Part shown: positions 46,155-51,411 of the stretch, piece after piece
How positions within the stretch are numbered: the stretch's first letter is position 1
Layout of the letters: every line of letters begins with the position of its first letter
Source of the DNA: Methanomassiliicoccales archaeon LGM-DZ1
GTDB lineage: Archaea; Thermoplasmatota; Thermoplasmata; Methanomassiliicoccales; Methanomethylophilaceae
Direction of reading: 5' to 3'
DNA length: 64,000 nucleotides
Assembly (NCBI GenBank): GCA_030168595.1
Contig: CP115556.1
Coordinates: 1,116,001 to 1,180,000, forward strand
The notes under the pieces: generated by a model
What the model was told of the DNA's origin: nothing
What the model saw: only the letters and a program-made list of their open reading frames with translations
Databases searched by the model: none
Translations under genes and position numbers: made by a program

Positions 46155-48878
46155 TCAGCAGGCGAAATAACCCTTGGTTTTGAGCATGTGCCTCTTGATG
46201 AGATGGGCCCCGGTGAAGTAGACCGCTCCGATGAACGGCATCCAGAGCAGCGCCCAGAGCGGGATCGACAGCAGGTCGGTGCATCCGGAGATCGCCTCCC
46301 ACAGCGGGGTTATGAACGGCAGCGACGTACCGACGGCCAGCGCCGCTATGGTGGTCACTATGAGGATCTTCGCGGAGCACGTCTGGAAGAACGGCAGGCT
46401 GTCCGTCCTCACGATGTGGATCGCCCATACCTGCATCCAGAACTGCTCGATGAACCACATCGACTGGAAGAGCACGGCGACCGGCAGCAGGCTGTCTATG
46501 GAATCTAGCGGCTTGCCGGAGAGGACGGCCTCGGAGGCGTTCGTGAAGTCGTAGCCGTCGGGCGAGATGCCGACGGTGGGCATGACCACGAACACGAAGA
46601 AGGCCCAGGACAGGAGGTCCGTGACCACGCACATCGGTCCGTAGCGGTACATGACGTTCCAGAGGTTCTCCGGTTCCCATTTCCTCGGTCTCTCGACGAA
46701 CTTGTCCTCGACCTTGTCCATGCAGATGAACAGGCAGGCGATGTCGTTGATGAGGTTGAACACGAGGATCATGGCCGCGCCCATGGGCTCGAAGTTGAAC
46801 AGGATGGTCCCGATGATGAGGGAGATCATGTAACCGAAGTTGATCGAGGCGATCATCTTCACGTACTTGATCGAGTTGACGTAGACCTTCCTGCCCTCGA
46901 TCGCCCCGGTGCGGAGTATGTTGAGGTCCTTCTCCAGGAGGATCATGTCGGCGGCCTCCTTCGCGATGTCGGTGCCGGTGTCCACAGATATTCCGACATC
47001 GGCCGCGTTCATCGCTATGACGTCGTTGATGCCGTCCCCGATGGCGCCGACCGTGTGGCCGTTGTCGCCCAGGGCGGTGACTATCCTCCCTTTGTCGTTG
47101 GGGTTGAGGCGGGCGAACACGCAGCATTCCTCGACCTCCTTCCTGAGCTCCTCATCGCTCATGGAGGCGATCTGGGGCCCGACGAGGATCTTCCCGGTCG
47201 GTATCCCGATCTGGTCGCAGACGTACTTGGAGACGAACTCGTTGTCCCCGGAGAGCACCTTGACGTCGATCCCGCCCTCGCGGAGCTTGCCGATGGCCTC
47301 CTTGGCGGAGGGCTTGATGGGGTCGGTGAACACGATGAGTCCCTCGAGGATGAGGTCCTTCTCGTCGTCGGCGGTGAAGTCCTTCTTGGCAGGGTCTCCG
47401 GGGCGGGACGCGACTCCCAGGACGCGCATGCCGCGGGCGCTGTAGTCGCGGATGCTGTCGACGATCTCGTTCTTCTTCCGGTCGTCGAGAGGGCTGATGC
47501 CGCCGTTCTCGTCCTTGTACCTGGTGGAGATCGAGAGGATCTCGGGCATGGCGCCCTTGGAGATGACGATCCTCCCCTCCGGCCCGTCGACCACCGCAGT
47601 GGCGCGCCGGCGGTTGAAGTCGAAGGGGACGTCGGCGACGTAGGCGTACTCGTCCCTTTCCTCGGTCAGGTACTCCTCCTCGGCAGTCTCGTCGAGTGTC
47701 CAGTCGATCTGGTTGGTCGCCGACATCAGGTTATGGGAGTTTATGCAGGCGAGGAGCCTCACACGCTCGGAGGCCCTCCCTCCCGGATCGCTGCAGAAGT
47801 GGAGGCTGATGCTATTCTGGGTCAGCGTCCCGGTCTTGTCGGAGCAGAGGACGTCCATGGCTCCGAAGTTCTGGATGGCCGTGACGTCCTTCACGATGAC
47901 CTTCTTCCTGGCCATCTCGATGGACCCCTTCGCGAGGTTGGCGGACACGATGGTCGGGAGCATCTCGGGCATCAGGCCGATGGCCAGGGACACCGAGTAC
48001 TTCACCGCGTCAATGAGGTCGTCGGTGAGCTCGGTCTCGGTGTTGAAGTACCCGCGGATCATCATGATCGCGAACACGGCCGGGACCATGTACAGCATGA
48101 TCTTGAGCAGGAGGTTGACGATGGCCTTGCTCCCTTCGTCATAGGTTGTCGGAGGCTTCTTGGCGGACAGCCTGTCCGTCATCGCCCCGAGGACCGTATC
48201 GTTCCCCACGGCGACGACCATCGCCTCGGCGGACCCGCCGACGACGGCGGTGCCGGAGAACGCGAGGTTGTTGCAGCCGAGGACGGAATCCTCCTCCCCC
48301 AGCGATACTGGGTCAGACGATTTGGTCTGGCTGTCGGCCTCGCCGGTGAGGACGGACTGGTCGACCTTCAGGTGGTTGGAGTCGATGATCCTGGCATCGG
48401 CGGGGATGATGTCCCCGGTGTCCAGGACGATGATGTCCCCGACGACTATCTCGCGGGACTCCACATCGGTCTCTATGCCGTCGCGGCGGACGGTAATCTC
48501 CGTGGTCACCATGCTTATCAGTGCGTCGGCGGCCCGGTTGTTGCGGTACTCCTGCACGAAAGTGACCACTCCGCTGATGATGATCAGCGACGTGAGGATG
48601 ATGAAATAGATGATGTCGGGGTCGATGACCATCCAGAGGACGTCTATCGCCGCCAGAACGAGGATGAAGACGTTTGAGAACGCGTGAACGAGTCTCCTCA
48701 GGTTCTGGAAGCGGGGCCCCGCGGAAAGGACGTTGTTCCCGTATTTGACACGGGAAACGGTCGTCTCCTCGGCGCTCAGGCCGTCGGTATGGCTGCCGTA
48801 CTCCCTGAGCACCTCCTCCGCAGTCTCGCCCGCCGCTCTCCTGAGCCTGTCCGTGGATGCAGCCTGACCTTCTACCAC
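46155..48878 (-). CDS. mgtA: magnesium-translocating P-type ATPase (MgtA/MgtB type)
   Basis: A 907-residue P-type ATPase of the P3B group that imports magnesium. Motifs: LTGE (177-180), the family-specific PEMLP in the fourth membrane helix (304-308), phosphorylated D347 in DKTGT, and the hinge GDGINDVIAM. The N-terminus has the SRVKYGNNVLS segment and the C-terminus a cluster of membrane spans with FQSMWFIEQFW, typical of MgtA. The start at 48878 is used. It is a single gene read toward tRNA-Lys. Confidence 0.93.
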   Translation of the reverse strand: MVEGQAASTDRLRRAAGETAEEVLREYGSHTDGLSAEETTVSRVKYGNNVLSAGPRFQNLRRLVHAFSNVFILVLAAIDVLWMVIDPDIIYFIILTSLIIISGVVTFVQEYRNNRAADALISMVTTEITVRRDGIETDVESREIVVGDIIVLDTGDIIPADARIIDSNHLKVDQSVLTGEADSQTKSSDPVSLGEEDSVLGCNNLAFSGTAVVGGSAEAMVVAVGNDTVLGAMTDRLSAKKPPTTYDEGSKAIVNLLLKIMLYMVPAVFAIMMIRGYFNTETELTDDLIDAVKYSVSLAIGLMPEMLPTIVSANLAKGSIEMARKKVIVKDVTAIQNFGAMDVLCSDKTGTLTQNSISLHFCSDPGGRASERVRLLACINSHNLMSATNQIDWTLDETAEEEYLTEERDEYAYVADVPFDFNRRRATAVVDGPEGRIVISKGAMPEILSISTRYKDENGGISPLDDRKKNEIVDSIRDYSARGMRVLGVASRPGDPAKKDFTADDEKDLILEGLIVFTDPIKPSAKEAIGKLREGGIDVKVLSGDNEFVSKYVCDQIGIPTGKILVGPQIASMSDEELRKEVEECCVFARLNPNDKGRIVTALGDNGHTVGAIGDGINDVIAMNAADVGISVDTGTDIAKEAADMILLEKDLNILRTGAIEGRKVYVNSIKYVKMIASINFGYMISLIIGTILFNFEPMGAAMILVFNLINDIACLFICMDKVEDKFVERPRKWEPENLWNVMYRYGPMCVVTDLLSWAFFVFVVMPTVGISPDGYDFTNASEAVLSGKPLDSIDSLLPVAVLFQSMWFIEQFWMQVWAIHIVRTDSLPFFQTCSAKILIVTTIAALAVGTSLPFITPLWEAISGCTDLLSIPLWALLWMPFIGAVYFTGAHLIKRHMLKTKGYFAC

Positions 48879-49464: not shown

Positions 49465-49473
49465 AGCCGGTTG

Positions 49474-50250
49474 ATGGATGTCCACGTTCTTTCCAGCGGC
49501 AGCCACGGCAACTGCACCGTCATCCGCCGCGACGACGAGGCCGTCATGGTGGACGACGGCCTCAGCGGACGCATGACCCAGCGCATGCTGGATTACGAGG
49601 GCATAGACGGGAAGGAGATCAAGGCCATCCTCCTCACGCACGAGCACCATGACCATGCCCAGGGGGCCGGCGTCACCGCCAGGAAACTGGGCATCCCCAT
49701 CTACTCCACGGTCGGGACCTTCATGAACTTCGACCACGGGGACGGGGTGGATTTCCATCCGTTCACCATATCAGGTTCCTTCCCCCTCTGCGGGATGGAG
49801 ATCGCTCCCCTCCCCACCAACCACGATGCCGCCGAGCCCTGCGCGTTCCGGATCTCCGAAGGGGACAGGAGCATCCTCTATGTCACGGACACCGGGAAGC
49901 TCAGCTTCCCCATCGAGGCCGCCCTCGCCGACGCGGACCTGGCGATCATCGAGGCCAATTACGATGCCCAGATGCTCCGCGACGGGTTCTACCCGGAGGC
50001 GACGAAACGGAGGATCGCCTCGAGCAACGGCCACATGAGCAACGTGCAGACGGCCGCCGCCATCAAGAGGACCGCCGGCAACAAGGACCGGAGGATATTC
50101 CTGGCACATCTGAGCGAGAACAACAACACGCCGGACGATGCCCGCCAGACCGTCTCCGACATCACCGGGATATCGCGTTTCCGGATAGACTGCCTCGAGT
50201 TCCGCCCCACCAGGGACAGGCCCGGGGACACCAGGCACCTCACCGTCTGA
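49474..50250 (+). CDS. MBL-fold exonuclease-like protein (YycJ/WalJ type)
   Basis: A 258-residue metallo-beta-lactamase-fold protein of the YycJ group. The start VHVLSSGSHGNCTVI is typical and the metal motif is LTHEHHDHAQG. Later ligands are in PTNHDA, YVTDTGKL and LAHLSENNNTP. Bacterial YycJ is linked to DNA exonuclease activity; the archaeal role is unknown. It starts 9 bp after the CBS protein and is probably co-transcribed. Confidence 0.85.
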   Translation: MDVHVLSSGSHGNCTVIRRDDEAVMVDDGLSGRMTQRMLDYEGIDGKEIKAILLTHEHHDHAQGAGVTARKLGIPIYSTVGTFMNFDHGDGVDFHPFTISGSFPLCGMEIAPLPTNHDAAEPCAFRISEGDRSILYVTDTGKLSFPIEAALADADLAIIEANYDAQMLRDGFYPEATKRRIASSNGHMSNVQTAAAIKRTAGNKDRRIFLAHLSENNNTPDDARQTVSDITGISRFRIDCLEFRPTRDRPGDTRHLTV

Positions 50251-50292: not shown

Positions 50293-51411
50293 TCATTTCG
50301 AGTATCTTATCTCTGCCGCGATGCCTGCCTGCACGAGCGGAAGTGCCAGGACATCAGGCATGTACAGGACGTCGCCGCGCTTGAGTATGTAGGAGCGGTC
50401 CGGTCCGGCGATGGGCATCGGCGCGTCCTGCAGGATCCTGATGAGGGCGAGATCGTTCCTGACCTTCTTCTTGGGCGCTGCGGAGGCGGGCCTCATCGGC
50501 ATGCCCATCTCCGCGTCCAGGGCCATCTCCTCGTCCGTGCCCTCCTCCTCATCCTCGTTCCCTCCCTCGGGGACGGCCTCCGGCGCCGGGGCGTCATGGA
50601 CCTGCGCCGCCGGGAGCGGGGAGGGAGCGCGCTGCGGAGGCGCCGAGGGCATGGCGGCCATCCTGTCGAGGCCGTCGTCTTCCGTGTCCTTCCCGTCATC
50701 AGGGATGTCCAGGTTCTCGTCGGGGGGATCGGCCGAAGGTTCTCCCCAGTCATCGGGTATCTCGGAGGCGGACGGAGACGGGGCCGGGGCGCTCCCGCGG
50801 ACCTCAGGCGCTTTTCCGGAGCCGGCGGCGGGAGCCCCCCAGTCGTCAGGGATCTCCTCAGGCTCAGGCTCCGGCTTGCTGGGCTCAGGTTTCTTGATCG
50901 GCTCCCTGACAGGTTCTGAGGGCGGTATCGGGGACGGCGTCGGGAACCTGCCGTCGTTCGGCTCCGGCTTGCTGGGCTCCGGCATCTGTATGTCGGGAAG
51001 CCGGAAGGGCGCATTGCCGCTGAGCCTGTCGACCAGGCCGCGCATGTACTCGGCGCCTTTCAGGATGTTATCGTAGAAGGCGCGCTCCTCCTTCGTCATC
51101 CTGGATATGTCGATGTCCCCTCCCATCGAGCCGCGGAGGGCCATCTTGGATATCTTCCCCAGGCGGAGGTCGACGATCGAGCGGGCGTGGTCCCTGGCCT
51201 TCTTCCTCTTGTCGTTGATGCCCTCGGCCAGAGGGGAATCGATGTCCTTGGCAAGTATGCTCTCGTACTCTGACTTGAGCTGTCTGATCAGGGCCGCCAT
51301 GGCCGGATAGAGGTCCTTGCGGACCTCGGTCAGTGTTTTGGACTTGTGCTCGACGCGGAAGAGCTCGGAGATCTCATCGAACGTCATGGGCGAGTCCGCC
51401 AATAGGGACAT
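50293..51411 (-). CDS. GINS-complex subunit (Gins51/Gins15-like) with a long acidic repeat-bearing linker
   Basis: Archaeal GINS binds MCM and GAN/RecJ in the replicative CMG-like complex. Residues 1 to about 130 look like the helical A domain (FDEISELFRVEHKSK, LYPAMAALIRQLKSEYE, MTKEERAFYDNIL) and 316-372 like the small B domain (LALIRILQDAPMPIAG, YILKRGDVLYMPDVLA). Archaeal homologues are about 190 residues; the extra 180 form a Pro/Glu/Asp-rich linker with IPDDWG at 187-192 and 218-223, IPDDG at 236-240 and PEPSKPEP at 144-151 and 175-182. Assignment rests on domain order and sequence feel and should be checked by structure prediction. Confidence 0.75.
   Translation of the reverse strand: MSLLADSPMTFDEISELFRVEHKSKTLTEVRKDLYPAMAALIRQLKSEYESILAKDIDSPLAEGINDKRKKARDHARSIVDLRLGKISKMALRGSMGGDIDISRMTKEERAFYDNILKGAEYMRGLVDRLSGNAPFRLPDIQMPEPSKPEPNDGRFPTPSPIPPSEPVREPIKKPEPSKPEPEPEEIPDDWGAPAAGSGKAPEVRGSAPAPSPSASEIPDDWGEPSADPPDENLDIPDDGKDTEDDGLDRMAAMPSAPPQRAPSPLPAAQVHDAPAPEAVPEGGNEDEEEGTDEEMALDAEMGMPMRPASAAPKKKVRNDLALIRILQDAPMPIAGPDRSYILKRGDVLYMPDVLALPLVQAGIAAEIRYSK

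Follow-up and report, generated by a model that had tools for sequence, protein, structure and literature searches.

A Gins51-type GINS protein with a long acidic linker and candidate docking motifs in Methanomassiliicoccales archaeon LGM-DZ1

Introduction

The closest described counterpart of the protein analyzed here is the T. acidophilum GINS, a homotetramer built from a single AB-type gene product, TacGins51, with a disordered loop between the A and B domains. The passages of PMC3114041 that concern this loop describe nearly 40 residues rich in Glu, Gln and Pro that act as a spacer and as a blocker of stacking. T. acidophilum GINS51 contacts MCM and TaRecJ2. For T. kodakarensis Gins51, the same passages report 16 linker residues without density in the crystal. 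In Haloferax volcanii and other haloarchaea, GINS is one Gins51 protein whose A and B domains are separated by a large insertion, the function of which is given as unknown in the corresponding part of PMC7776575. Short acidic and hydrophobic peptides are known as docking elements of eukaryotic replisome proteins. The CIP-box of Sld5 docks Ctf4 (excerpt of PMC4980431), and the RPA70N ligands PrimPol, WRN and BLM use stretches of about 20 residues with mixed acidic and hydrophobic character, of which WRN has two identical tandem copies between domains (excerpts of PMC5457501 and PMC10479964).

The gene described here lies in a 64,000-nucleotide stretch of contig CP115556.1 from Methanomassiliicoccales archaeon LGM-DZ1, hereafter called the window. 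Its product shares with TacGins51 the single AB-type gene and the disordered interdomain segment, but this segment is 181 residues long and bears repeated and genus-conserved motifs, whereas the role given to the TacGINS loop in the cited passages is that of a spacer and stacking blocker, not docking. The haloarchaeal proteins have the same single-gene, large-insertion layout, a likeness drawn from their published description. T. kodakarensis Gins51 (3anw_A; B domain 5ghr/5ghs) is matched in both domains by fold and in the A domain by sequence profile, but differs in working with a Gins23 partner. The CIP-box and RPA70N-binding motifs are comparable by analogy only, as short acidic-hydrophobic peptides, sometimes duplicated, in flexible replisome proteins. 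Long disordered Gins51 linkers are already known. A literature search confined to papers outside subscription, and thus lacking the main publication on T. acidophilum GINS, turned up no description of docking motifs in archaeal GINS linkers.

Materials and methods

The orthologue search matched 131 of 151 genomes and 130 loci were taken, 126 of them with an A-domain match (the exceptions are L124, L126, L128 and L129). Loci L031, L090, L096 and L116 have a broken frame or run into the end of a contig; their exclusion left 122 orthologues. Alignment A1 consists of the window protein and 84 orthologues. A wider phylum sample produced matches in 146 of 194 genomes, and the open frames are mostly about 185–300 aa long among the matches listed.

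Linker motifs were searched by expectation-maximisation after the first 16 linker residues had been cut off, because the conserved end of the last A-domain helix would otherwise dominate the result. The motif runs also omitted second GINS copies and short linkers. For the second motif of the protein's own genus (g1), near-identical linkers were removed and the first motif was masked. The shuffle controls leave shared ancestry in, and the strongest check on a motif is the otherwise poor likeness of the same linkers. In the DNA pattern used for IPDDWG, the Ile position may also be L, V, F or M, and Asp may be replaced by E.

Results and discussion

Read on the plus strand, 50293–51411 yields stops; the open reading frame is on the minus strand, from 51411 down to 50293 (Table 1). 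The sequence-only reading had taken the two ends of its product for the A and B domains of an archaeal Gins51, and profile, fold and orthologue evidence agree on this assignment. The window protein alone reaches E 0.013 against Pfam Sld5, under the curated cut-off, and E 0.25 against 3anw_A by phmmer. The A1 profile matches 3anw_A at E 1.2e-12 and S. solfataricus GINS (9moj_C) at E 1.6e-5, and the Gins51 B domain 5ghr_B by sequence at E 0.12 only. At E values up to 0.1, Pfam Sld5 matches 64 of 85 orthologues and Gins51_C, which is not reported for the window protein, 77 of the 85.

The AlphaFold2 model contains a four-helix A domain and a small B domain, both confidently predicted, separated by residues without helix or strand and with pLDDT mostly 43–68. 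Using VIA-align, the A domain superimposes on 3anw_A with Z 13.7 (rmsd 2.6, 110 residues, over 9–125) and the B domain on 5ghr_B with Z 8.7 (rmsd 1.9, 53 residues, over 319–372). Unrelated helical proteins (14-3-3) score up to about Z 7.8, a background that the A-domain match clearly exceeds. Foldseek returns 3anw_A as the sole match below E 0.001. The locus encodes a real Gins51-type GINS subunit with the order A, linker, B.

A Gins23 (BA) type was considered and rejected. The NCBIfam Gins23 model scores the protein at E 1.3e-8 and 34.9 bits, below its cut-off of 120, through a match of residues 7–120 to profile positions 46–150 that covers the A part only, and the A-then-B order of the AlphaFold2 model contradicts such a type as well. 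Among the NCBIfam GINS models, Gins23 alone reports the window protein, and automatic naming could mislabel a Gins51-order protein.

Table 1. Features of the GINS gene in window coordinates
Feature	Residues	Coordinates	Strand	Details
Gins51-type GINS gene	372 aa + TGA stop	50293..51411	(-)	
A domain, helical	11-131	51019..51381	(-)	AlphaFold2 pLDDT about 95-98; 3anw_A
Pro/Asp/Glu-rich linker without predicted fold	132-320	50452..51018	(-)	pLDDT, composition, length
PEPSKPEP unit 1	144-151	50959..50982	(-)	
PEPSKPEP unit 2	175-182	50866..50889	(-)	
EIPDDWG unit 1, followed by AP	186-192	50836..50856	(-)	
EIPDDWG unit 2, followed by EP	217-223	50743..50763	(-)	
IPDDG, degenerate unit	236-240	50692..50706	(-)	
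TEDDGLDRM, degenerate copy of genus motif IPxDELDxM	243-251	50659..50685	(-)	
B domain, small mixed alpha/beta	321-367	50311..50451	(-)	pLDDT about 91-97; 5ghr_B

Searches of the organism's own genome (one contig, 1,768,094 bases) with A1 and the Gins23 model found no second GINS gene, and for this reason the protein probably forms a homotetramer. The same genome encodes two DHH-family proteins above the Pfam cut-off, which are candidate GAN/RecJ-like proteins. The GINS gene is convergent with an MBL-fold gene (49471–50250) and divergent from a DUF167 gene, after which come dTMP kinase and CoaBC; among the neighbouring genes inspected, none is a replication partner adjoining GINS. At 46155–48878 the window encodes a magnesium-translocating P-type ATPase (TIGR01524, 745.2 bits, above its cut-off).

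The linker measures 181 aa between the two domain profiles (about residues 132–320 in the AlphaFold model). Linkers of the 122 orthologues range from 11 to 181 aa with a median of 76.5, the window linker being the longest, and are rich in Pro, Glu, Ala, Asp and Val. The unusual length noticed at first therefore holds for the linker, and the repeats listed from the sequence, namely two IPDDWG(A/E)P units, one IPDDG and two PEPSKPEP units, are all found in the 372-aa protein. The longest non-overlapping repeat in the linker is 8 residues. In 5000 shuffles, the longest repeat was 3–6 residues in 4990 cases, 7 in 10 and never 8, so the 8- and 7-residue repeats exceed what composition predicts.

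Such repeats could also arise in a linker that is a flexible spacer only, with a length and charge that allow the B domains of identical subunits to take different positions and keep tetramers from stacking, and with the repeats as by-products of drift in a low-complexity sequence. We consider this possible, though the less probable kind of explanation. A spacer role has already been proposed for the TacGINS loop of about 40 residues (E/Q/P-rich; passages of PMC3114041), linker length varies widely among orthologues, and PEPSKPEP, like the 11-residue linker repeats of G063 and G025, looks like simple expansion. The two EIPDDWG units, in contrast, have kept their peptide although 4 of their 21 bases are not the same, each change being synonymous; among 20000 random placements of four differences, a crude null with no mutation or codon bias, a fraction of 0.0002 preserves the peptide.

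The literal IPDDWG motif is rare, a point in favour of the spacer. Its coding pattern occurs in the GINS gene of 3/102 family genomes (the own genome, G151 and G001), which represent two species, and in the GINS linker of 2 of the 12 usable species of the genus. The expectation that close relatives would conserve it thus largely failed, and IPDDWG is rejected as a widely conserved motif. The DNA pattern is carried by 19 further genomes outside GINS coordinates. In the own genome it occurs at five places, two in this gene and three in rubredoxin-like proteins (two in one two-segment protein and one in a small protein), so it is also rejected as a signature common to another replication protein. 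The PDDW matches outside GINS in this genome read LPDDWVCP.CG or VPDDWKCPMCG, and a weak NCBIfam rubredoxin match at residues 183–200 (E 1.1) has the same cause. A rubredoxin identity, suggested by the resemblance of IPDDWGAP to LPDDWVCP, is rejected because the GINS protein lacks any cysteine. At C1:860800-860994 (L133), one long ORF has two rubredoxin-like segments, after which comes a stretch that by eye resembles a glutamate-synthase-type FMN domain. Near C1:1719856 (L137), two small rubredoxin-like ORFs adjoin in different frames.

Broader motifs are conserved within genera. In g1, IPxDELDxM scores above zero in 12/12 usable members and is clear in 10/12, with a score of 131.0, whereas the best of 20 shuffles reached 56.5 (w=9, 12 genus members); it is degenerate in the window protein and in G007 (ILDDSLDPP). 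Restricted to non-redundant linkers, the motif is found in 11/11 (130.7 against 62.3), and the string PDDELDAM is still readable in the frame-broken copy of G002. A second g1 motif occurs in 6/11 linkers with a score of 74.6, compared with 62.3 as the shuffle maximum for first motifs. Its instances are DWGEPSADPP (window), DWGESNDDVP (G001), EYSEPQEIVP, EYYEPEDDIP, EYSADIDIVP and EYYEPEEEIP, an alignment that puts a Tyr of other genus members at the position of the IPDDWG Trp. The right flank of EIPDDWG unit 2 resembles the G001 unit (DWGESNDDVP).

In genus g4, FDD[IV]P is present in 19/20 linkers (204.7 against a shuffle maximum of 94.9) and a second motif resembling PPE[LMEQ][FW]DEP in 17/20, with W and F exchanged in G069 and G088 and EWAEEP in G081. 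The combined genera g6, g12 and g3 share a TLKDMPVFDD-like motif in 9/9 linkers (126.8 against 56.9). The linkers drift otherwise, with median linker identities of 0.33–0.37.

Across the family, the pattern P[DE].[FWY][DEGAS][DE] occurs 20 times in 18/82 linkers, whereas 1.6 occurrences are expected from full shuffles and 2.6 from shuffles within 20-residue blocks (0/500 reach 20). Enrichment extends to the reversed pattern [FWY][DE][DE].P (29 occurrences, 3.6–5.6 in shuffles), and none of the 37 linkers from other families contains the forward pattern. Within 3 positions of an aromatic residue there are 2.91 acidic neighbours, compared with 1.77 after shuffling (n=191, 0/200). The effect is weaker for Leu/Ile/Met (2.22 against 1.78), small for Pro and Gly, and not seen for Val. 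With both orders of the pattern enriched, these patterns may reflect clustering of acidic and aromatic residues and not one fixed motif. A family-wide motif scored below zero in 14/32 family linkers, and in a set of 29 genera represented by one linker each no order-wide motif beat shuffles (117.9, shuffle maximum 132.4). Motifs would then turn over from genus to genus, a common behaviour of docking motifs, or be relics of particular lineages. IPDDWG looks like the Trp version of a broader acidic-aromatic/hydrophobic motif class that is conserved within genera. Neither genus-wide motifs in otherwise dissimilar linkers nor aromatics embedded in acid would be predicted for a bare spacer.

DNA-mimicking tails are generally rich in Asp and Glu and carry aromatics in acidic surroundings. 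With its own high Asp/Glu content and aromatics of this kind, the linker could be such a mimic, folding onto its own tetramer or onto the DNA-binding channel of MCM and restraining activity until a partner displaces the linker. We regard this as very improbable: in neither AlphaFold model does the linker lie against one of the folded domains, although monomer models are a weak test, and in both the linker has low confidence and no secondary structure.

The reading that we favour, with some confidence, is that the linker is a flexible tether whose several motifs dock a putative replisome partner. By inference from the T. acidophilum and T. kodakarensis assemblies, the A domain would build the tetramer core, from which the small B domain, folded as predicted, would hang on the long acidic tether. 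The tether bears short motifs with an aromatic or hydrophobic residue among Asp and Glu; their apparent genus pattern is a [W/Y/F]-in-acid stretch with IPxDELDxM nearer the B domain, and in this species the first seems to have become the repeated IPDDWG and the second to have degenerated. Each tetramer would present many copies of these motifs, which may serve as weak docking sites and keep a replisome partner, basic and grooved, near the helicase. Candidates for this partner are a ssDNA-binding protein, MCM, a RecJ/GAN-like protein, primase or PolD. The docking sites suggested by the sequence-only reading thus survive in altered form: docking in general is supported because the acidic-aromatic class beats shuffles and the genus motifs are conserved, whereas the literal IPDDWG is too narrowly distributed to carry the claim. 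The motifs would be dispensable in some lineages, since orthologues work with short linkers of 11–60 aa. By analogy, the composition of the linker motifs resembles the CIP-box and the RPA70N-binding motif, an acidic peptide whose spaced hydrophobic residues fit RPA70N's basic cleft. A search of the genome for the RPA C-terminal OB family (Rep_fac-A_C) reached a best E of 0.24, below cut-off.

A more speculative and rather doubtful proposal is that GINS in Methanomethylophilus and relatives is a multivalent docking hub made of four identical subunits, each presenting several acidic-aromatic motifs along its long tether. Such a hub would bring a partner to the helicase, for example a ssDNA-binding protein or polymerase-primase. 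It would be a separately invented archaeal counterpart of Sld5/Ctf4 or RPA70N-type tethering, with motif turnover fast enough for each genus to have its own motif. If docking is true, archaea use the tethering logic of the eukaryotic replisome with other parts. The genus-conserved motifs provide concrete residues (W191/W222 and the DELD stretch) with which the role of the linker becomes testable.

The nearest named relative, Candidatus Methanomethylophilus sp. 1R26 (L132), shows 98% identity in the best segment and is probably the genome G151, which is of the same species. Its GINS copy keeps both IPDDWG units; compared with the window, codon 277 has lost one base and three bases are inserted near codon 314. 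When the window frame is followed beyond the deletion, 9 changes are still synonymous and 2 are not, which makes an assembly error or a very recent break likely. The two genes differ by 16 substitutions, 14 of them synonymous and one in the linker, a number uninformative on linker selection. Frame breaks inside the low-complexity linker are seen in L132 (1R26), L031 (G002) and L090 (G114), and these are likely draft-assembly errors in GC-rich repeats, though all three cases fall in the same region. Two g4 genomes carry a second GINS copy with a short linker, at L198:8835-9443 (G045) and at G027:C1:1001725-1002156. The G045 copy has two ORFs nearby, one in which a reverse-transcriptase-like YRFADD motif was recognised by eye and one with Sel1-like repeats, and the G027 copy has an internal TGA.
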